Under the pieces are notes generated by a model that saw only the letters and a list, made by a program, of their open reading frames with translations, did no database searches and was not told where the DNA came from. Made by a program: the position numbers and the translations under genes. From Gemmatimonadota bacterium (GTDB lineage Bacteria > Gemmatimonadota > Gemmatimonadetes > Gemmatimonadales > Gemmatimonadaceae): a stretch of DNA of 64,000 bases. Position 1 is the first letter of the stretch; every line of letters begins with the position of its first letter. The stretch is from NCBI GenBank assembly GCA_026387915.1, contig JAPLKS010000011.1, positions 1 through 64,000 on the forward strand. Direction: 5' to 3'. Below, one piece after another: positions 22,288 to 33,779 of the stretch.

Positions 22288-22934
22288 GTCCTGCTCCCAC
22301 GCACCGCGTCCATGAACGCGCGCATTCTCGAGTGATCCTTCTCCCCCGGCACCCGCTCCACGCCGGAGGACACATCCACCACATCCGGCGACAGCAATCG
22401 AATGGCCGTCGCCACATTCTCCGGCCGCAGCCCGCCAGCCAGCACCACCGGTGTCGAGCCGCGCACCGAGTCCAGCGTGCGCGCCAACGCTTCCCACTCC
22501 AGCGTCACGCCCGTGCCACCAAGACTCCCCGGCACGCGGGCGTCGAGCAACACCGCATCGGCTTCTCGAAACAGCTCTTCGGTCCAGTCGGGGAGCAACG
22601 AGCCGTCGGCGCGCGCCACCGCCCAAATCTGTCCACTAAACCGAGCGCGCGTGCGTCGAATATCCGCCGCGCGCGGATCGCCGTGTAGCTGCACCACGGT
22701 GAGACCAACCGCGACCGCCGTGCTGGCCACATGTTCCTGCGCATCCGCACCAAAGACACCAACGCGCGGGACGCTCGCACTGATCCCAGACCAAAGCTCT
22801 GCCGCACGCTCGGCCGTGAGATGGCGAGGGCCACCCGCAAAGACCGTCCCGATGTAGGACGCGCCCAGCGCTATCGCGGCCACTGCGTCATCGGCGCGCG
22901 TCATGCCACAGAACTTTACTTTGACGTCAGCCAC
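22284..22934 (-). CDS. trpF: Phosphoribosylanthranilate isomerase
   Basis: 216 residues from GTG 22934, overlapping trpC by eight bases. It catalyses the Amadori rearrangement in tryptophan synthesis. The catalytic cysteine is in VKFCGMTR and the general acid aspartate in VLLDARVPG; the barrel end [14 protein letters not shown] and DVSSGVER bind phosphate. Order trpC-trpF-trpB is common in bacteria. Confidence 0.94.
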
Positions 22935-23814
22935 GCGCCCGCCGATGCACTCCGAGAAACGCCGCCAGTGCGCTCGTTCCGTCCGCGGAACTCGATAGCG
23001 CGGACCCAACGAGCACCGCATCTGCTCCGAGCGCAGCCGCGCGCTCCACACCGCTGCGATCCGCGACACCGCTCTCATACACCGCAATCCGATCGCTTGG
23101 AACCAGTGGGATCAATCGCGCACTGACTTCATCGTCAATGACGAGTGTTTCGAGGTTCCGATTGTTCACGCCAATCACGCCCCTCGGCACGGCGAGTGCG
23201 CGCTCGAGTTCCTCCTCGCTGCGCACTTCCAGGAGCACTTCGAGCCCGACCCCTCCGGCGAAGTGAGCCAGCGCGTTGAAACGGGACGGTTCCAGCGCGC
23301 GGGCAATCAGCAGCACGGCGGATGCACCGGAGGCTCGAGCCTCGAGCAGCTGCACCTCGTCAACAATAAAATCCTTGCGGAGAAGCGGAATGGAGACCGC
23401 CCGGCGTGCCGCGCGTAGGTCGTCAAGCGACCCGCCAAAGCGCGACGGCTCCGTGAGCACAGACAACGCCGCAGCACCGGCGGCCGCATAGAGCTGCGCG
23501 CGCGCCTCGGCGACGATGCCAGCGTTGATGGTCCCTTTGCTTGGGCTTCGCCGCTTGATCTCTGCGATGACCTGCACCGTGTCGCGCCGAAGCGCAGCGG
23601 CAAAGCCGGCGGGCCGGGGAGCCTCCGCCACGGCGCGCTCCAACGCCGCGCGGTTGGACGCCGCTGCCCCCGCCCGCACGAGGGATGCGGCGGTCAGCTC
23701 CCCCAGCGGGCCGGCGGGGGGAGTCCATGGCGAGGTTGGCTGTTGCGCTTCGGTCAATGTTCGGCTACCGTTACTTCGGGTGCTGTTCGGGCGTCTCCTG
23801 AGACACGCTCCCAC
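22927..23814 (-). CDS. trpC: Indole-3-glycerol phosphate synthase
   Basis: 295 residues from GTG 23814, or 276 from a TTG at 23757; the family usually has about 260-270, and the first ~20 residues look non-conserved, so the TTG start is possible. Catalytic residues are visible in VIAEIKRRSPSKG (Lys), LLRKDFIVDEVQL (Lys) and GVNNRNLETL. It heads the minus-strand trp block and is divergent from lexA; I see no leader peptide or attenuator in the short gap. Confidence 0.94.
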   Translation of the reverse strand: MGACLRRRPNSTRSNGSRTLTEAQQPTSPWTPPAGPLGELTAASLVRAGAAASNRAALERAVAEAPRPAGFAAALRRDTVQVIAEIKRRSPSKGTINAGIVAEARAQLYAAAGAAALSVLTEPSRFGGSLDDLRAARRAVSIPLLRKDFIVDEVQLLEARASGASAVLLIARALEPSRFNALAHFAGGVGLEVLLEVRSEEELERALAVPRGVIGVNNRNLETLVIDDEVSARLIPLVPSDRIAVYESGVADRSGVERAAALGADAVLVGSALSSSADGTSALAAFLGVHRRARG

Positions 23815-23852
23815 TTCCGTTGTTGCCGTTCACTCTTGCAGGGACCGCCGCC

Positions 23853-24461
23853 ATGCCGCTCACCAAGCGCCAGCGCCAGATCCTCGATTACCTCAATAAC
23901 TACACCAACGAAAACGGCTATGCGCCGAGTTTCGAGGAAATCGCGGCGCAGTTCAACTATAACTCGCTGGCGACGGTTCACGAACACCTGAGCAATCTCG
24001 AGCGAAAGGGCTATATCAAGCGCAGCTACAACGAGAGCCGCGCCATTGAAATCCTTCCGAACGACGTGCTCCCACGGGCGGTGGAGATTCCCCTGCTCGG
24101 CGCCGTTGCGGCCGGTCTTCCGCTCGAAGCGAGCGCGACGGACGAAACGATCTCGGTTCCAGAAGATTTTGTTCGGCGCGCCGGCAACCATTACGCCCTT
24201 CGCGTGCGCGGCAACTCGATGGTAGACGATCACATCACCGATGGCGACCTCGTGGTGGTGCATGATCGCCAAACCGCAGATAACGGCGACATGGTAATCG
24301 CGATGCTCGACGACCAGTCGGCCACCGTCAAGCGCTACTTCCGTGAGCGCGACGGACGCATCCGCCTGCAGCCTGCCAATGACACCATGGCGCCCATCTA
24401 CCTGCAAGAGCATCAGATGCGGGTGCGAGGCGTGGTGGTCGGCGTGATGCGGCGCTTCTAA
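23853..24461 (+). CDS. lexA: LexA repressor
   Basis: 202 residues from ATG 23853, preceded by GCAGGGA; an upstream TTG at 23820 would add 11 unlikely residues. LexA represses SOS genes and cleaves itself when RecA filaments form. The winged-helix domain (KRQRQILDYLNNY, NYNSLATVHEHLSNLERKGYI) is followed by the cleavage site Ala87-Gly88 in AVAAGLPLEA, the serine nucleophile Ser122 in GNSMVDDHI and Lys160 in ATVKRYF. I find no canonical SOS box (neither CTG-N10-CAG nor GAAC-N4-GTTC) in the short upstream gap. Confidence 0.94.
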   Translation: MPLTKRQRQILDYLNNYTNENGYAPSFEEIAAQFNYNSLATVHEHLSNLERKGYIKRSYNESRAIEILPNDVLPRAVEIPLLGAVAAGLPLEASATDETISVPEDFVRRAGNHYALRVRGNSMVDDHITDGDLVVVHDRQTADNGDMVIAMLDDQSATVKRYFRERDGRIRLQPANDTMAPIYLQEHQMRVRGVVVGVMRRF

Positions 24462-24488
24462 AACCGCCCGCTCTCCGTGTGACACAAA

Positions 24489-24522
24489 CGCCGCGCCGCT
24501 CGGACTTCCTAGCGGCGCGGCG
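24489..24522. terminator. Terminator hairpin between lexA and trpD
   Basis: CGCCGCGCCGCT (24489-24500) and AGCGGCGCGGCG (24511-24522) form a perfect 12-bp stem around a 10-base loop. On the minus strand it is followed by TTTGTGT, so it can end trpD transcription; its distal arm lies in the last trpD codons. On the plus strand it can also stop lexA transcripts, although the T-run is weaker there. Confidence 0.7.
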
Positions 24523-25546
24523 CCGCTTTGCGGAGGCGTTCGAGCGCGTCGTAACCGGCACCACCCCGCAGCACCGCCTGCGCCAGCGTGAGAGCCCCCG
24601 CGTAATCAGCCGCGAGACCACCAACATAGATGGCGCCGGCCGCGTTCAACGCCACCGCGGAACGCGCTTCTAGGCTGCCGCCACCGCGCAGGACCTGCTC
24701 GATGAGCGCGGCGTTGTCTTCCGGCGATCCACCGGCGAGCGAATCGGCGCTCGCTAGCGTCAGTCCCACATCGGAAGGATCGAGCGTCCACCGCGTCTGC
24801 TCTCCGCGCGAAATCTCGATGATCGTTGTACGCCCCATGGGCGAGATCTCATCGAGCCCTGGCTCGCCGTGTACTACCAAGGAGTGGCGCGTGCCGAGAG
24901 TCGCGAGTGCGCTGGCAATAAGTTCAAGGCGGTTTGGATCCGCCACGCCAATCACCTGGCGCCCCGCGCGGGCAGGATTGGCGAGTGGCCCCACGAGATT
25001 CATCACCGTGGGAATGGCAATCTCGCGCCTCACGGGCCCCACGTGGCGCATCGCAGGGTGCATCGTGGGCGCAAACATAAAGACGATTCCCGCATCGCTG
25101 AGCACCTGTGCCATCTGCGACACCGGCACATCGATGGCCACGCCAAGCGCCTCGATGACATCCGCGCTCCCTGAGCGCGACGTGAATGATCGATTGCCGT
25201 GCTTCGCCACGCGCGCGCCCGCGCCTGCGGCCACGAGCGCCGCCGCGGTAGAAATATTGAAGGTGGAAATCGTTCCGCCGCCGGTGCCACACGTGTCCAC
25301 GAGGGCGTCGGCGTCCGCCACGTCGAGCACGGTCATCGCGCTGCGAAGTGCGGCGGCAGCACCCGCTACTTCGCTGGGGGTCTCTCCCTTCACGCGGAGC
25401 CCCATGAGGAGCGCCGAGATTTGGGAGGGCGTTCCCTCGCCTGCCATCACAACCTCAAAGGCGGCCTGAGCCTGAGGACCCGCCAGCGACTCACCGAGCG
25501 CCAGCGCTTTAACGGCGGCCTGTAGCGCATTCACGGTACTATGCAC
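24509..25546 (-). CDS. trpD: Anthranilate phosphoribosyltransferase
   Basis: 345 residues from GTG 25546; GTG 25534 is an alternative, since trpD proteins usually begin near NALQAAVKAL. It transfers the phosphoribosyl group from PRPP to anthranilate. The PRPP loop VDTCGTGGGTISTFNIST, the KHGNRSFTSRSGSADV stretch and FAPTMHPAMRHVGPVR are all typical. It overlaps the end of a GAF gene upstream. trpE and trpG are not in this window. Confidence 0.95.
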   Translation of the reverse strand: MHSTVNALQAAVKALALGESLAGPQAQAAFEVVMAGEGTPSQISALLMGLRVKGETPSEVAGAAAALRSAMTVLDVADADALVDTCGTGGGTISTFNISTAAALVAAGAGARVAKHGNRSFTSRSGSADVIEALGVAIDVPVSQMAQVLSDAGIVFMFAPTMHPAMRHVGPVRREIAIPTVMNLVGPLANPARAGRQVIGVADPNRLELIASALATLGTRHSLVVHGEPGLDEISPMGRTTIIEISRGEQTRWTLDPSDVGLTLASADSLAGGSPEDNAALIEQVLRGGGSLEARSAVALNAAGAIYVGGLAADYAGALTLAQAVLRGGAGYDALERLRKAAPRR

Positions 25547-26969: not shown

Positions 26970-27743
26970 ATGGCGGGGCGCATTCTCCAGCTCGTTTTGC
27001 ACTACGACGGACAGGACTTCGCCGGCTGGCAGGTCCAGCCGGCGCAGCGTACGGTGCAAGGTGAACTCGAATCGGTGCTCTCTCGCCTGTGCGACCAACC
27101 GGTGCGCGTGGCAGGCGCTGGGCGGACAGATGCCGGAGTTCACGCGCGCGGACAGGTTGCGAGTGTGGAGATGCCGGAGCATTGGACGGAAGAGCGGCTG
27201 CGCAAGGCAATGAACAGCATGCTTCCGCACGACATCTGGGTGGCTCGGGTGTGCGCCATGGCACCTGGCTTCCACGCCCGGTACAGCGCGACCGGTCGGC
27301 GCTACAGCTACACGGTGGGGCTCGACGAGGCGTCCCGCTCGCCCTTTCGGCGACGCTGGGAATACGCCTTCTCCCGGGCCCTCGACCGCGAAACGCTGAG
27401 CTGGTGCGCGGAGCAGGTCGTCGGGTTGCATTGTTTCTACGGATTCGCCGTGCGAGGGACCGCACCGGCGACCGATGGGCACGAATGCGATGTACGGATC
27501 TGCCGGTGGCGCGACACTGCAACTGGCATGGTGCTCGACATTGAGGCGAACCGGTTTTTGCACCACATGGTTCGGTTCTTGGTGGGCACCATGCTCGACG
27601 TGGCAAGCGGCAAGCGGCAGCGCGCGGAGCTGACCTCGCTTCTCGTGGCAACGGACAACGACGATGTGTCGCCCCCTGCGCCGAGTGAAGGGTTGTGCCT
27701 AGAGCACGTTACGTATCCCGATGCCCTCTACCTTTCCGCCTGA
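26970..27743 (+). CDS. truA: tRNA pseudouridine(38-40) synthase
   Basis: 257 residues. TruA isomerises uridines in the tRNA anticodon arm. The catalytic aspartate is Asp54 in GAGRTDAGVHARGQ; LHYDGQDFAGWQ and FLHHMVRFLVGTMLDVASG are conserved TruA segments. It appears to head the plus-strand cluster that runs on into the purine genes. Confidence 0.95.
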   Translation: MAGRILQLVLHYDGQDFAGWQVQPAQRTVQGELESVLSRLCDQPVRVAGAGRTDAGVHARGQVASVEMPEHWTEERLRKAMNSMLPHDIWVARVCAMAPGFHARYSATGRRYSYTVGLDEASRSPFRRRWEYAFSRALDRETLSWCAEQVVGLHCFYGFAVRGTAPATDGHECDVRICRWRDTATGMVLDIEANRFLHHMVRFLVGTMLDVASGKRQRAELTSLLVATDNDDVSPPAPSEGLCLEHVTYPDALYLSA

Positions 27744-27750
27744 GTCATCG

Positions 27751-28413
27751 ATGCGCCTCTTTCTTGCTACTGCGTCGCTCGACGAAATCCGCTGGGCGAC
27801 TGACGCCGGCCTTATTGACGGCATCGTCGCAACGCCCACGGTGGTCACCACGGAGTTGCCCGGCGCTGATGTGCGCGAGGTGATTACCGAAATCGCACGC
27901 GCCACGCGCCTGCCCCTGTGCGCCAGTGTGCCGGCGATCGGCGCCGCTGACATCGTCAAAGGTGCCCGCGATCTCGCCAAACTCACCGATCACGTGATCA
28001 TCGCGATCCCGTTTATCGAAGATTCGGTGCCGGCCATCAACAAGCTATCGGCTGACGGTGTGCGAGTGGCCGCCACGCTGGTGTACTCGGCCGCGCAGGG
28101 CATTCTCGCCGCCAAGGCCGGCGCCACCATGGTCACCATCGCGATTGACGCGCTGGACGCCGTCGGCCAAGACGGCGTCGCAGTCATCCGCGAATTGCGG
28201 GCGGCGTTCGGCAATAAGACCGAATGCGACATTGCCGCCGCGGGCCCGTCGAGCGCCGCCACCTTCGCCGCCTGCGCGGCAGCCGGCGCCGACGTGGCCA
28301 TTGTCACCCCCGGCGCACTCCACGCCTTTCTGCAACATCCGCTCACCGACCGTGGACTCGACCGCTTCCTCGGCGCCATCGCGCGTCGGCCGAAGCCACG
28401 GCGGGCGCGTTGA
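27751..28413 (+). CDS. Transaldolase/fructose-6-phosphate aldolase-like protein without catalytic residues
   Basis: 220 residues from ATG 27751, where the protein lines up with the fructose-6-phosphate aldolase start; ATG 27721 overlaps truA. The whole small transaldolase barrel is recognisable (LFLATASLDEIRWATDAGLIDGIVATPT..., LVYSAAQGILAAKAGATMV). By ungapped count, the three catalytic positions of the E. coli aldolase are all changed: Asp6 is Ala6, Asn28 is Thr28 and the Schiff-base Lys85 is Ala85. It therefore cannot work as a normal aldolase. It follows truA by seven bases and precedes the HtrA gene by two. Confidence 0.85.
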   Translation: MRLFLATASLDEIRWATDAGLIDGIVATPTVVTTELPGADVREVITEIARATRLPLCASVPAIGAADIVKGARDLAKLTDHVIIAIPFIEDSVPAINKLSADGVRVAATLVYSAAQGILAAKAGATMVTIAIDALDAVGQDGVAVIRELRAAFGNKTECDIAAAGPSSAATFAACAAAGADVAIVTPGALHAFLQHPLTDRGLDRFLGAIARRPKPRRAR

Positions 28414-28415
28414 CC

Positions 28416-29831
28416 ATGCGGTCAGTGCTTCCGATTAGCGCGATCATCGCCATTGCCTGCGGTGGCGCATCGCCATCGCCATCCATCGCGCAGAACACGC
28501 GACTGCCGGAACCGGCCGCCAATATCAATGTGCAGCGGCGCACCGCCATCACCGAGGCCGTCGCCAAAGTGGCCCCGGCCGTTGTGACGGTGCAGACGGA
28601 AGCGGTGCAACGCACGCAGGTCTCGCCGTTCGACGCGTTCTTTGGGCGGCAGCCGGAACAACAGGTACAGTCAGGCATCGGGTCCGGTTTCATCATTCGC
28701 GATGACGGCATCATCATCACCAACGCGCACGTGGTGAATGGCGCGAGCAAAATCAGCGTGGCGTTGCGCGACGGCACCACCTACCCCGCCACGCTCAAAG
28801 GCATCGACGAACTCAACGACCTCGCGGTGCTCAAGATCGAAGCCAAAAAGTTGCCCGTGGCCACCCTTGGCACCTCGCGCGGCTTGCTGATTGGCGAATG
28901 GGCCATCGCGATTGGCAATCCGTACGGCTTTATCCTTGGCAACACGGAGCCGAGTGTCACGGCCGGCGTGATCAGCGCCACAGGGCGCAATCTTACCGCG
29001 CGCGCCGAAGGGAACGGCTTGTACGTGGACATGATTCAGACGGACGCATCGATCAATCCCGGCAACTCCGGCGGCCCGCTCGTGGACGCGGTAGGTGAAG
29101 TGATCGGTGTGAATAGCTCGATCTACTCGCCGACCGGCGGCTCGATCGGCTTGGGGTTTGCGATTCCGATTGATCGTGCGCGCCGCGTAGCCGAAGATCT
29201 GCTCGCGCACGGCAAGGCGCGTCGCCCGTGGATTGGCGTGAAGATGGAAATGCCCACGGCAGCCGGCGCCTCCGCGCGTCAGCAGTTCGCCAACGGCGCC
29301 ACGGTCAAGAGTGTCGTGCCCGGCTCCCCCGCGGCCGCGGCTGGCTTGCAGCCGGGCGACGTGCTCGTCCGGTCGCGTGAGCGCACGTTGCGCAATGCGT
29401 ACGACTGGGAAGCCGAGTTGCTCGAACTTCGCGTGGGCGACAACGAGCCGCTGGTAGTCAAGCGCGGCGGTCGCGAGTTCCAGGCCACTGTCAAAATTGC
29501 AGACTTACCGGAAGTGAGTGCCGAGCGCGTGGCGGTGCTCAAGGACCTTGAGCTCGTCACACTCACGCCGGCAATCCGCGGCGAACGCAACGTGCGCGCC
29601 GCGCGCGGTGCGCTTATCACGAATGTGGCGCAGAAGGTCGCAGAAGATCTCGGAATCCAAGCGGGTGACGTCATCACGCGCATTGGCAATCCCACCATCG
29701 GCTACGTCGATCTTACCGATGCGCAGCAGGCCAAAACGGTCCTCGAAAGCCTCGCTGGCCGCGGTCAGATGCAAATGTTTTTTGAACGCAATGGCACCAC
29801 GTATTATTCCGTTTTCCAAATCGGTCGATGA
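28416..29831 (+). CDS. HtrA/DegP-family periplasmic serine protease
   Basis: 471 residues from ATG 28416; an export signal covers the first ~25 residues (VLPISAIIAIACGG...SIAQ). The trypsin-like domain carries the triad His in TNAHVVNG, Asp in LNDLAVLKI and Ser in NPGNSGGPL. Two PDZ domains follow (GLQPGDVLVRSRERTL and GIQAGDVITRIGNPTIG). Such proteases degrade or refold damaged envelope proteins. Its stop overlaps purB as ATGA, so expression is tied to the purine genes. Confidence 0.92.
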   Translation: MRSVLPISAIIAIACGGASPSPSIAQNTRLPEPAANINVQRRTAITEAVAKVAPAVVTVQTEAVQRTQVSPFDAFFGRQPEQQVQSGIGSGFIIRDDGIIITNAHVVNGASKISVALRDGTTYPATLKGIDELNDLAVLKIEAKKLPVATLGTSRGLLIGEWAIAIGNPYGFILGNTEPSVTAGVISATGRNLTARAEGNGLYVDMIQTDASINPGNSGGPLVDAVGEVIGVNSSIYSPTGGSIGLGFAIPIDRARRVAEDLLAHGKARRPWIGVKMEMPTAAGASARQQFANGATVKSVVPGSPAAAAGLQPGDVLVRSRERTLRNAYDWEAELLELRVGDNEPLVVKRGGREFQATVKIADLPEVSAERVAVLKDLELVTLTPAIRGERNVRAARGALITNVAQKVAEDLGIQAGDVITRIGNPTIGYVDLTDAQQAKTVLESLAGRGQMQMFFERNGTTYYSVFQIGR

Positions 29832-31264
29832 GCTCACACTCGCGTTACAGTTCCCCACTCAGTGAGCGCTACGCCTCCAAGGCGATGCTCGAACTGTGGT
29901 CGCCGCAAACCCGTCACGGACTCTGGCGTCGGCTCTGGCTGGCGCTCGCCGAATCTGAGCGCGCCCTCGGTATCGATATTTCCGAGGCGGCCGTCGCCGA
30001 GATGCGAGCGCACCTCGACGACATCGATTTTCCCAAGGTCGCTGAGTATGAGAAGCGCTTTCGCCACGACGTCATGGCGCACGTACACGCCTTTGGTGAA
30101 GTGGCGCCACTTGCGCGCGGCGTGATTCACCTGGGCGCCACCAGCGCGTTCGTGACCGACAACGGCGACTTGATTCAAATGCGCCGCGGCCTCGAGCTGC
30201 TGCGCGCGCGCGTGATTGCGGTGATCGGCACGATGTCCACCTTCGCCCGTCAGTGGCGCGCTGAACCCACGCTCGGCTACACGCACTTGCAGCCGGCGCA
30301 GCTGACCACCGTTGGCAAACGGGCAACGCTCTGGCTGCAGGATCTGGTGCTCGACCTCGCGGACCTCGATCACCGCATTGCCAATCTGCCGATGCGTGGG
30401 GTCAAGGGGACGACCGGAACGCAGGCGAGCTTCCTCGAACTGTTTCGCGGCGATCACGCCAAGGTGCGCGAACTCGACCGACGCGTCTGTGCGGCGATGG
30501 GCTTCTCCGCCTCGATCCCCGTGTCCGGCCAAACCTACACGCGCAAACTCGACGCGCAGTTGATGGGCGTGCTCTCGGGCATTGCCGCGAGTGCGGCCAA
30601 GTTTGCCAGCGACATGCGGATGCTGCAGGCCTTTGGGGAAATCGAAGAGCCGTTCGAAAAGGAACAGATTGGCTCCAGCGCGATGGCGTACAAGCGCAAC
30701 CCCATGCGCGCCGAGCGTATCAACGCGCTCGCGCGCTTTGTGCTGTCGATTGAAACGAATGCGAACCAGACGCACTCGGTGCAGTACTTCGAACGCACGC
30801 TGGACGACAGCGCCAACCGCCGCCTCGCGATTCCCGATGGGTTCTTGGCCGTCGATGCGATTCTTATTCTCCTCGAGAACGTCGCGAGCGGCCTCGAGGT
30901 ACACCCGGCGCGCATTCGGGCACGCGTGATGGAAGAGTTGCCATTCATGGCCACGGAAGAACTCATCGTGCGCGCCGTTGAGGCAGGCGGCGATCGGCAA
31001 GAGGCGCACGAGGTAATTCGGCGCCACTCCATTGCCGCGGCCCGTGCGATGAAAGACGACGGCGTGGCCAACGACATGCTCACACGCCTCGCGGCAGACC
31101 CCGCGTTCGGCGTGAACATTGACGCCGTGCGCGCCGCGGCCGATCCACACCGGTACATCGGCCGATCGCCGCAGCAGGTTGACGATTTTCTCGCGGAAGT
31201 GATTGCTCCGCTGCTGGCGCAGCATGGCGCTGGCGCCGTTCCCACGGAGGACGTCCGGGTATGA
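29828..31264 (+). CDS. purB: Adenylosuccinate lyase
   Basis: 478 residues. PurB cleaves SAICAR to AICAR and adenylosuccinate to AMP. Fumarase-superfamily motifs are seen: [33 protein letters not shown], and the signature loop [16 protein letters not shown]. Length and the C-terminal part fit the longer, eukaryote-like lyase class. It starts inside the HtrA stop and ends overlapping purC (ATGA). Confidence 0.95.
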
Positions 31265-32187
31265 CACGCACGGTTGGTACCACCGATCTTCCGCTTCCCC
31301 GCGTCCGCCAGGGCAAAGTGCGCGACGTCTACGCCGTGGGCGACGACCGACTCCTGCTGGTGGCGAGCGACCGCGTCAGTGCGTTCGACGTCGTGATGCG
31401 CGAACTCGTGCCCTTCAAGGGGGCGGTGCTCACGCAGATTACCGCCTGGTGGCTCCGGCAGTTTGAGGACGAGATCCCGCATCACATGCTGAGCGCTGAC
31501 GCTGACGAGATCATTCAACTCGTCCCCGCGCTGGCGCCGCACCGTGCCACCTTGGCCGGCCGCTCGATGCTTTGCCGACGCACCGAGGTATTTCCCGTCG
31601 AGTGTGTGGTGCGCGGCTATCTGTCCGGCTCGGCGTGGAAGGAATACCACGCCACGGGCACACTCGCCGGTGAGCAGTTGCCCGCTGGACTCGTGGAAAG
31701 CAGCCGCTTTGATCCGCCCGTGTTCAGCCCCGCCACCAAGGCCGAAACAGGGCACGACGAGAACATCACCATTGCCGTTATGCGCGCGCAGCTGGGCGAG
31801 GCGACCACCGCCGAACTGGAGCGCATGGCGCGCCGCATCTACGAGCGGGGCCGTGACCTCGCCGCGACCCGAGGCATCATCATTGCTGACACCAAGTTTG
31901 AATTTGGTGCGGTGGATGGTCGCATCATCCTGATTGACGAAGTGCTCACCCCAGACAGCTCGCGTTTTTGGCCCGCTGACCAGTACGCGCCCGGACGCAG
32001 TCAACCCAGTTTCGACAAGCAGCCGTTGCGTGACTGGTTGGACGTTGAGCGCCGTGCGGGCCGTTGGGATGGCAACGCGCCTCCGCCGACGTTGCCGGCG
32101 GAAGTGGTCGCCGAAACGAGCGCGCGTTATCTCAATGCGTTCTCGCGCCTCACCGGTTCCGCCCTTGACCTCCCGAGGATTTCGTGA
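31261..32187 (+). CDS. purC: SAICAR synthetase
   Basis: 308 residues. PurC couples CAIR with aspartate using [14 protein letters not shown] is the nucleotide-binding start, [17 protein letters not shown] is the family signature, and [10 protein letters not shown] and [15 protein letters not shown] follow. Both ends are translationally coupled (purB and psd overlaps). Confidence 0.96.
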
Positions 32188-32831
32188 ACGTCGCTAGAGA
32201 AGGGATTCCGTTCATTCTGATCGCCGTGGCGATTGCGGCAGGGGGGTTTCTCCTTGCCGTCACCAAGCGCTCGTGGCCGCTTTGGTTGCTGGCCTTTCTA
32301 CTCACGCTCGTGGCGCTCTGGGTGGCGTACTTCTTTCGCGATCCCGAACGCACCGGCGAGCGCGGCGACACGCTCGTGATCGCTCCGGCCGACGGACGCA
32401 TCGTGCACCTGACGGAAGTGGACGAGCCGTCGTTCGTTCACGGCAAGGCGCTGCGCATTTCGATCTTCATGAACGTGTTCAATGTGCACGTCAATCGATA
32501 TCCGGTGAATGGCACGGTCGACTACGTGCACTACAATCCTGGCAAGTTCCTCAATGCGGCGGTTGAGAAGTCGAGCCTTGAGAACGAGCAGATGTCGGTG
32601 GGCATCACGTCCGGCCCTCGCAAGATTCTCGTGCGCCAGATTGCGGGGCTGATTGCGCGCCGCATCGTCACGTATAGCAAGCCCGGTGACGCGGTGCGAC
32701 AGGGAGAACGCTTTGGCCTGATTCGCTTTGGCTCGCGCGTTGATGTCTTCGTCCCCACCAACGCGAAGATTCGCGTCAAGATTGGTGAGACCACCGCCTC
32801 CGGCACCACGGTGCTGGCGGAGCTGCCGTAA
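32184..32831 (+). CDS. psd: Phosphatidylserine decarboxylase, short type
   Basis: 215 residues. Psd makes phosphatidylethanolamine from phosphatidylserine. Two membrane segments occupy the N-terminus ([17 protein letters not shown] and [19 protein letters not shown]). The active-site histidine motif is [13 protein letters not shown], and self-cleavage should occur in RFGSRVDVF to give the pyruvoyl group. The GTG start overlaps the purC stop, and pssA begins directly after, so the two lipid enzymes are paired inside the purine cluster. Confidence 0.92.
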
Positions 32832-33779
32832 ATGAAACGCCCTCGGCTCCCGCGCCCGTCGATGGTGATGTTGCCGAACGGATTCACGCTCGGCAACCTC
32901 TTCTGCGGCGTGTTCGCCATCGTCAACGCAACGCGCGGCGAACTGAACCTCGCCGTCACGTGCATTCTCGTCGGCGGCGTCTGCGATGCGCTGGATGGGC
33001 GCGTCGCGCGCGCCACCAATACGGGGAGTCGCTTCGGCGAGGAACTGGACTCACTCGTCGATGCCATTTCATTTGGCCTCGCGCCAGCGCTCATTATGTA
33101 TTTCGCGGTGTTGCGCCGTGATAACTGGGACTGGCTTTTCGTGTTTTGGTTTGCCGCCTGCGCCGTGATGCGGCTGGCGCGGTTCAATGTCGAGCAGGCC
33201 GGTCACTCCAAGCGGTATTTCCGCGGTCTGCCGAGCCCCGCGGCCGGCGGAGTACTGGCGTCGTACTACTGGTTCAGCCAAACGTCGCTCTTTCAGCAAA
33301 CGTCTATCGGCGACCTGCCGTGGCACACGTACGTGCGCATCCTGATGGCCGCGCTGTCGTTCCTGATGATCAGCAACGTGCCGTACCTCGCGTGGCCCAC
33401 CTTCAACTTGCGAAGCTGGCGCGGCGTGATTGGGCTGCTCGTGTTCGTAGGACTCGGCGTGGGGCTCGTCTTTCTTCCCAAGCAGTTCTTCTTCCCGGTG
33501 GGGTTGTTGTATGTCGTCACCGGCGTGCTCGCCGCTGTCGTAGGCGGCTTGCTGGAAAAACAGGGCCATCGCACGGCGGACCACGAAGTCGCAGGCATCG
33601 AAGCCTACGAACTGCCTGACGATGACGATGATACCGATATCGATGACGAAGTAGTCCCCGAGGCAACGGTAGCAACTCGCGAGAGCGAGCAGAGCCGCCG
33701 TCGTCGCCGTCGCCGCCGCGGTCGTCGCGGCCCTGGTTCCACACCTGACAAAGACCAATCCGAGGGTTCACCGGAATGA
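32832..33779 (+). CDS. pssA: CDP-diacylglycerol-serine O-phosphatidyltransferase
   Basis: 315 residues, an integral membrane enzyme that makes phosphatidylserine, the substrate of Psd. The CDP-alcohol phosphatidyltransferase motif DGRVARATNTGSRFGEELDSLVD is intact. The catalytic part ends near residue 245. A tail of about 70 residues follows with an acidic run (LPDDDDDTDIDDEV) and then eight consecutive arginines in SRRRRRRRRGRRG, which is unusual for the family. The start follows the psd stop immediately; the stop overlaps purS as ATGA. Confidence 0.92.
   Translation: MKRPRLPRPSMVMLPNGFTLGNLFCGVFAIVNATRGELNLAVTCILVGGVCDALDGRVARATNTGSRFGEELDSLVDAISFGLAPALIMYFAVLRRDNWDWLFVFWFAACAVMRLARFNVEQAGHSKRYFRGLPSPAAGGVLASYYWFSQTSLFQQTSIGDLPWHTYVRILMAALSFLMISNVPYLAWPTFNLRSWRGVIGLLVFVGLGVGLVFLPKQFFFPVGLLYVVTGVLAAVVGGLLEKQGHRTADHEVAGIEAYELPDDDDDTDIDDEVVPEATVATRESEQSRRRRRRRRGRRGPGSTPDKDQSEGSPE

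Follow-up and report, generated by a model that had tools for sequence, protein, structure and literature searches.

A TalC-type transaldolase without its Schiff-base lysine, kept in its ancestral place in the Gemmatimonadaceae: a probable pseudoenzyme

A gene that encodes a recognizable small transaldolase devoid of the residues needed for catalysis raises the question of what, if anything, its product still does. Such a gene lies in the window analyzed here, a stretch of 64,000 nucleotides from a bacterium of the family Gemmatimonadaceae (phylum Gemmatimonadota). An earlier note, made from the sequence alone, had described an intact frame packed tightly between truA and htrA and had proposed that selection keeps it for a non-aldolase role. 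The coordinates of the open reading frames confirm the packing (Table 1): 7 bases separate the truA stop from the start of the gene and 2 bases its own stop from the start of htrA, which in turn shares 4 bases with purB; purC, psd and pssA follow in the block. An in-frame ATG is also present at 27721, upstream of the start; homologues start at 27751. The 220-residue protein matches the Pfam family PF00923 (TAL_FSA) at 1.8e-20 with 73.9 bits, above the gathering score of 27, and TIGR00875 (fsa_talC_mipB) at 2e-41 with 141.8 bits, below the equivalog cut-off of 245.95. The transaldolase 1vpx from Thermotoga maritima matches it at 7e-37.

Table 1. Positions in the window of the gene, its syntenic neighbours and the remodelled parts of its product.
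Feature	Position	Strand	Basis
Lysine-less TalC/FSA-family (pseudo-transaldolase) gene, 220 aa	27751..28413	+	ORF, profile matches, alignment, AlphaFold2 model
truA, syntenic neighbour upstream	26970..27743	+	locus map, synteny
htrA/degP-type protease gene, syntenic neighbour downstream	28416..29831	+	locus map, synteny
purB, purC, psd, pssA, remainder of the conserved block	29828..33779	+	locus map, synteny
Codon 6: Ala for catalytic Asp6	27766..27768	+	alignment to E. coli FSA and 1vpx
Codon 28: Thr for Asn28	27832..27834	+	alignment to E. coli FSA and 1vpx
Codon 85 (GCG): Ala for Schiff-base Lys85, middle of strand beta-4	28003..28005	+	alignment, model
Codons 133-134: clade-specific Asp133; Ala for phosphate-binding Arg134	28147..28152	+	alignment, conservation columns
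Remodelled beta-7/alpha-7 segment, residues 159-175: clade-specific C159, P166, C175; FSA phosphate Ser166 to Gly165	28225..28275	+	conservation columns
Conserved HPLTDRG..L segment, residues 196-207, running into the C-terminal helix	28336..28371	+	conservation columns, model

In fructose-6-phosphate aldolase (FSA) from Escherichia coli, the Schiff base is formed by Lys85 and the donor site is organized by Tyr131, Asp6, Asn28, Gln59 and Thr109 (PMC13259622). Our multiple alignment places Ala, Thr and Ala at positions 6, 28 and 85 of the window protein, as the earlier note had read them, and the loss extends beyond what was claimed there: positions 26, 59, 107, 131, 134 and 166 are altered as well, Tyr/Phe131, Arg134 and Ser166 being replaced by Ala, Ala and Gly, and Thr109 is retained. 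In the window's genus the old pocket is lined, according to the alignment, by A6, V26, A85, A107, A131 or S131, A or T134 and G165. The alignment to E. coli FSA had been described as gapless over the first 90 residues; this did not hold, as small compensating indels occur near positions 42 and 52, though they leave positions 6, 28 and 85 in register.

An AlphaFold2 model built with the window protein and 50 relatives as input (pLDDT 91.7, pTM 0.85) displays eight strands in barrel order. It superimposes on 1l6w, 1vpx and 3r8r at 1.6-1.8 A across 210-214 residues, and comparison with the members from Bacillus subtilis, Thermoplasma acidophilum, T. maritima and E. coli gives Z scores of 29-31 at 1.6-2.3 A over 210-218 residues. 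Judged against solved TalC/FSA structures (Z 28-31), the predicted model has the transaldolase-type (beta/alpha)8 fold. The protein resembles the small TalC/MipB transaldolases (subfamily IV; 1vpx from T. maritima, 3r8r from B. subtilis, 3s0c from T. acidophilum) in its fold (VIA Z 30-31, 1.6-2.2 A), its length, its 29-34% identity and its C-terminal HPLTD segment, and that group includes the orthologues found at this locus in the sister families. It differs from them by the absence of the Schiff-base lysine, of Asp6/Asn28 and of the phosphate-binding Arg134/Ser166, and by a TIGR00875 score of 142 vs 246. With E. coli FSA (1l6w) it shares the fold (Z 29.0, 1.8 A) and Thr109, but the identity is 22% and Lys85, Tyr131, Asp6, Asn28, Gln59, Arg134 and Ser166 are all missing. 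The Lys86Ala variant of the T. acidophilum enzyme (3s1w), among the best solved matches, carries the same Lys-to-Ala change; this change is however a single engineered one, with the other residues of the site intact.

Could the lysine have been displaced or overlooked? Position 85 lies within strand 82-87 of the model, and no lysine was found on any of the eight strands, those at 70, 77, 98, 122, 156 and 215 being located in helices or loops. Hence no other lysine stands in for Lys85, and a relocated lysine is ruled out, since none lies on a strand and none is invariant among the degenerate genera. Structural alignment, which the earlier note had named as one way in which the lysine might reappear, did not restore it. 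It is hardly conceivable that a sequencing error, a wrong frame or a shifted alignment hides the lysine, as the same residues are found in all 16 other copies recovered from the genus, which come from independent assemblies, and the model has no strand lysine. Altogether, the beta-4 Schiff-base lysine, Asp6/Asn28/Tyr-Phe131 and Arg134/Ser166 that mark an active transaldolase or FSA are absent, and on the alignment and the predicted structure Schiff-base aldol chemistry can be ruled out for the window protein.

The gene is present in 16 of the 17 other genomes of the window's genus, the exception being a 78% complete genome in which truA was likewise not found, and in 112 of the 148 Gemmatimonadaceae genomes sampled. 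Named carriers are a Gemmatimonas phototrophica MAG, Roseisolibacter sp. H3M3-2 and Gemmatirosa kalamazoonensis. Six active-site positions (Asp-Thr-Asn-Lys-Arg-Ser) were read in 112 family copies (59 + 53). Not one has the lysine at position 85, which is occupied by A, Q, E, M or R, and all 83 relatives from outside the family read D-T-N-K-R-S. Of these outsiders, 24 are positional orthologues belonging to five other families in the phylum, and 59 are relatives (sister families, Firmicutes, Acidobacteria, Pelagibacteraceae, Alphaproteobacteria and others) collected with patterns that excluded position 85. A recent mutation in a single strain, which the earlier note had considered fatal to its reading, is ruled out by this family-wide absence. 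The frame is intact, with about 216-227 codons, in nearly all of the 112 copies. A frame break interrupts one copy (L263, G124:C12:6965-7622), reflecting either an error of assembly or a recent loss.

The order trpC(-) lexA(+) trpD(-) truA(+) TalC(+) htrA(+) purB purC psd pssA is repeated across six families of the phylum (f1, f2, f3, f4, f5 and f9), a member being sometimes missing, and the TalC that occupies the truA-htrA position in the sister families is intact. The window gene is thus the positional orthologue of an intact TalC and not a stray paralogue, and the active enzyme died in place. Since the window gene inherited its position next to htrA and the pur genes from active TalC, the neighbourhood is uninformative on any new role, and guilt by association with these genes was dropped.

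In a gene tree of 72 rows, the Gemmatimonadaceae copies form one clade (100/98) adjoining intact copies of the same order. The lysine state needs a single K-to-other change on this tree, and one loss at the base of the family would account for it. Three genera are near-complete except for the lysine, reading DTNMRS (g48), DTNERS or DSNERS (g35) and DSDERS (g46), and the remaining 40 rows form a clade (100/100) that has lost Asp6, Asn28 and, for the most part, Arg134. The existence of three lysine-less genera with most of the active site kept implies that the lysine was lost before the binding residues. The intermediates DTNMRS, DTNERS and DSDERS retain the phosphate site, which suggests that sugar-phosphate binding may have outlived catalysis. 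These intermediates branch earliest in the gene tree; in the neighbour-gene tree, the g5/g44 lineage comes first instead. The order of events, lysine first and binding residues later, stands under both trees if the lysine was lost once, and the conflict between the trees means that the later losses of Asp6, Asn28 and Arg134 may be one or several.

Is such a gene still under selection? We estimated dN/dS with the NG86 method, trusting only pairs with dS under about 1. Against the nearest species, the window gene has a dS of 0.60 and a dN/dS of 0.039, the same pair giving 0.020 for htrA, 0.019 for purB and 0.153 for truA. Other close pairs gave 0.067, 0.073, 0.075, 0.106 and 0.109; in one Roseisolibacter-like pair the value was 0.27, with the neighbours at 0.20-0.30. 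The dead gene is under purifying selection, with dN/dS values of 0.04-0.27 that are similar to those of its neighbours. Together with the intact frames, these low values bear out the earlier claim that selection keeps the frame, and a pseudogene is disfavoured on the same grounds.

Conservation has shifted within the protein. The conservation of the catalytic shell drops from 1.00 in active orthologues to 0.52 in the Gemmatimonadaceae copies, below the protein average, and that of the C-terminal segment is 0.71 in lysine-less copies vs 0.76 in active orthologues. TalC and FSA proteins assemble as decamers, made of a dimer of pentamers with a swapped C-terminal helix. Columns 133, 159, 175, 107 and 108 have exchanged one conserved state for another, and column 166 is newly conserved as Pro (share of genera: D133 0.77, C159 0.86, C175 0.82, P166 0.91); Thr109 and Gln116 are kept. 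Columns that are switched and then conserved are unlike simple decay. One could assume that they belong to a repurposed enzyme, which would have lost the Schiff-base chemistry and gained another, lysine-independent reaction with the participation of newly conserved residues such as D133. Changes of chemistry are common among (beta/alpha)8 barrels, and the retention of Thr109 and Gln116 along with D133, C159, C175 and P166 would fit this idea. We nevertheless consider it unlikely: the former pocket in the window's genus is lined by small residues (Ala, Val, Thr, Ser, Gly), the catalytic-shell columns are less conserved than the average of the protein and, from the secondary structure of the model, C159 would lie at the start of beta-7 and C175 in alpha-7, away from the barrel mouth.

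On the other hand, the mean identity between genera is 44% for lysine-less copies vs 65% for active orthologues, which means that constraint is weaker than on the active enzyme. The gene is absent from 12 family genomes checked, where htrA comes directly after truA, and about seven independent clean losses are counted on the neighbour-gene tree. Their repetition indicates that the gene is dispensable, and their cleanness that the operon tolerates its removal. In one of the 12 genomes, from a genus without the gene, a 26-residue remnant (L130:2259-2333) lies between truA and htrA. The gene could thus be viewed as a functionless relic of TalC that is fading slowly and kept merely by the dense operon, a reading with which the repeated clean losses, the L130 remnant, a conservation below that of active orthologues and the split copy of G124 are all consistent. 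An operon that tolerates the deletion is however a poor reason for keeping the gene, dN/dS is 0.04-0.11 in most close pairs, like in neighbouring housekeeping genes, frames are intact in nearly all of the 112 copies and new conserved positions arose after the loss. We thus hold this explanation to be improbable.

The genomes themselves offer a clue to the origin of the change. A full-size transaldolase (Tal) is found in all 37 family genomes of one sample and in nearly all of a second one; that of the window genome passes TIGR00876 (339 vs 234 bits), and its translation contains the SNPTIF and IKVPGT motifs. In the sister family f2, a hand tally shows the two enzymes to be nearly exclusive, with TalC only in 27 genomes, Tal only in 32 and both in 2. 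The presence of Tal goes there with the absence of TalC, whereas the Gemmatimonadaceae have instead kept TalC minus its lysine. The full-size transaldolase, which belongs to another subfamily, is a likely trigger for the change of TalC.

A parallel can be drawn with PDX1.2, a non-catalytic plant homologue that acts as a positive regulator of vitamin B6 synthesis and that, like the window protein, lacks key residues of the active site and occurs in a single clade (PMC6829848). By analogy, the window protein might be a regulatory or stabilizing subunit of an active transaldolase, and an active-looking one is present in nearly every host. PDX1.2 acts however beside active paralogues in the same cell, whereas most Gemmatimonadaceae lack an active TalC paralogue: among the sampled genomes, a TalC paralogue was found only in Gemmatirosa (G033) and G036. 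A heteromer with such a paralogue is thus excluded for most genomes, where a PDX1.2-like subunit would need a non-TalC partner, the likely one being only a distant full-size Tal of another subfamily. A role of this kind seems to us very improbable. In Gemmatirosa kalamazoonensis, the second, intact TalC (DTNKRS) is carried by a 1.04-Mb plasmid (L042, NZ_CP007130.1 about 131955-132566) and the dead copy is chromosomal; the second copy of G036 also has D, N, K and R intact (L042 and L043 being the second-copy loci).

We rather favour the view that the window protein is a pseudoenzyme that descends directly from an active TalC transaldolase of subfamily IV, still occupies the ancestral place and was probably kept as a putative non-catalytic binder. 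It is indeed an enzyme homologue without the essential catalytic residues whose frame is under purifying selection. As the lysine is gone and the protein is yet under selection, its present task is probably something other than catalysis; the non-aldolase role proposed earlier is supported to this extent, the selection being observed and the role being what we infer from it. The full-size enzyme would first have covered the transaldolase reaction. The lysine would then have been lost at the base of the family, with the sugar-phosphate pocket still intact, and the protein may have been retained as a putative oligomeric (beta/alpha)8 barrel, non-catalytic but binding a ligand or a partner. A sugar phosphate may have been bound at first, and another ligand or a protein partner at a later stage in the lineage of the window. 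A more tentative hypothesis would be that TalC, once a full-size transaldolase was present, became a putative metabolite-sensing or partner-binding barrel, the intermediates being sugar-phosphate receptors and the window's lineage having moved to a new ligand or partner.

Pseudoenzymes are already known. A pseudo-transaldolase that is clade-wide, conserved in position and accompanied by extant intermediates is undescribed as far as the literature searched goes: our searches found no paper on a pseudo-transaldolase and, for Gemmatimonas and transaldolase, nothing on this protein. At one syntenic locus, active orthologues, lysine-less intermediates, fully stripped barrels and clean deletions form a natural series that illustrates how an enzyme can die and yet stay useful, with a likely trigger visible in the same genome. 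Were the sensing or partner-binding barrel to prove true, it would represent a new protein function on the transaldolase fold, the steps towards which are preserved in extant genera. The locus also contains an annotation trap, in that profile methods label lysine-less proteins as transaldolase or fructose-6-phosphate aldolase. For instance, the protein of L179:3001-3663 is lysine-less (K to E, as in L089 and L086) and reaches 253.2 bits with TIGR00875, above the equivalog cut-off of 246, so that automatic annotation would give the name fructose-6-phosphate aldolase to a protein devoid of the catalytic lysine.

Two minor observations concern the neighbouring genes. In close pairs of the genus, the dS of truA is markedly below that of its neighbours (0.21 vs 0.60-0.69 against G007). 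This effect is gone across the whole genus, and slow synonymous change in truA was therefore dropped as a real effect; the one seen in close pairs may reflect recombination. Finally, lexA, on the forward strand, lies between trpC and trpD, both on the reverse strand (22927-25546 of the window), and this arrangement is repeated across the phylum in the loci compared.
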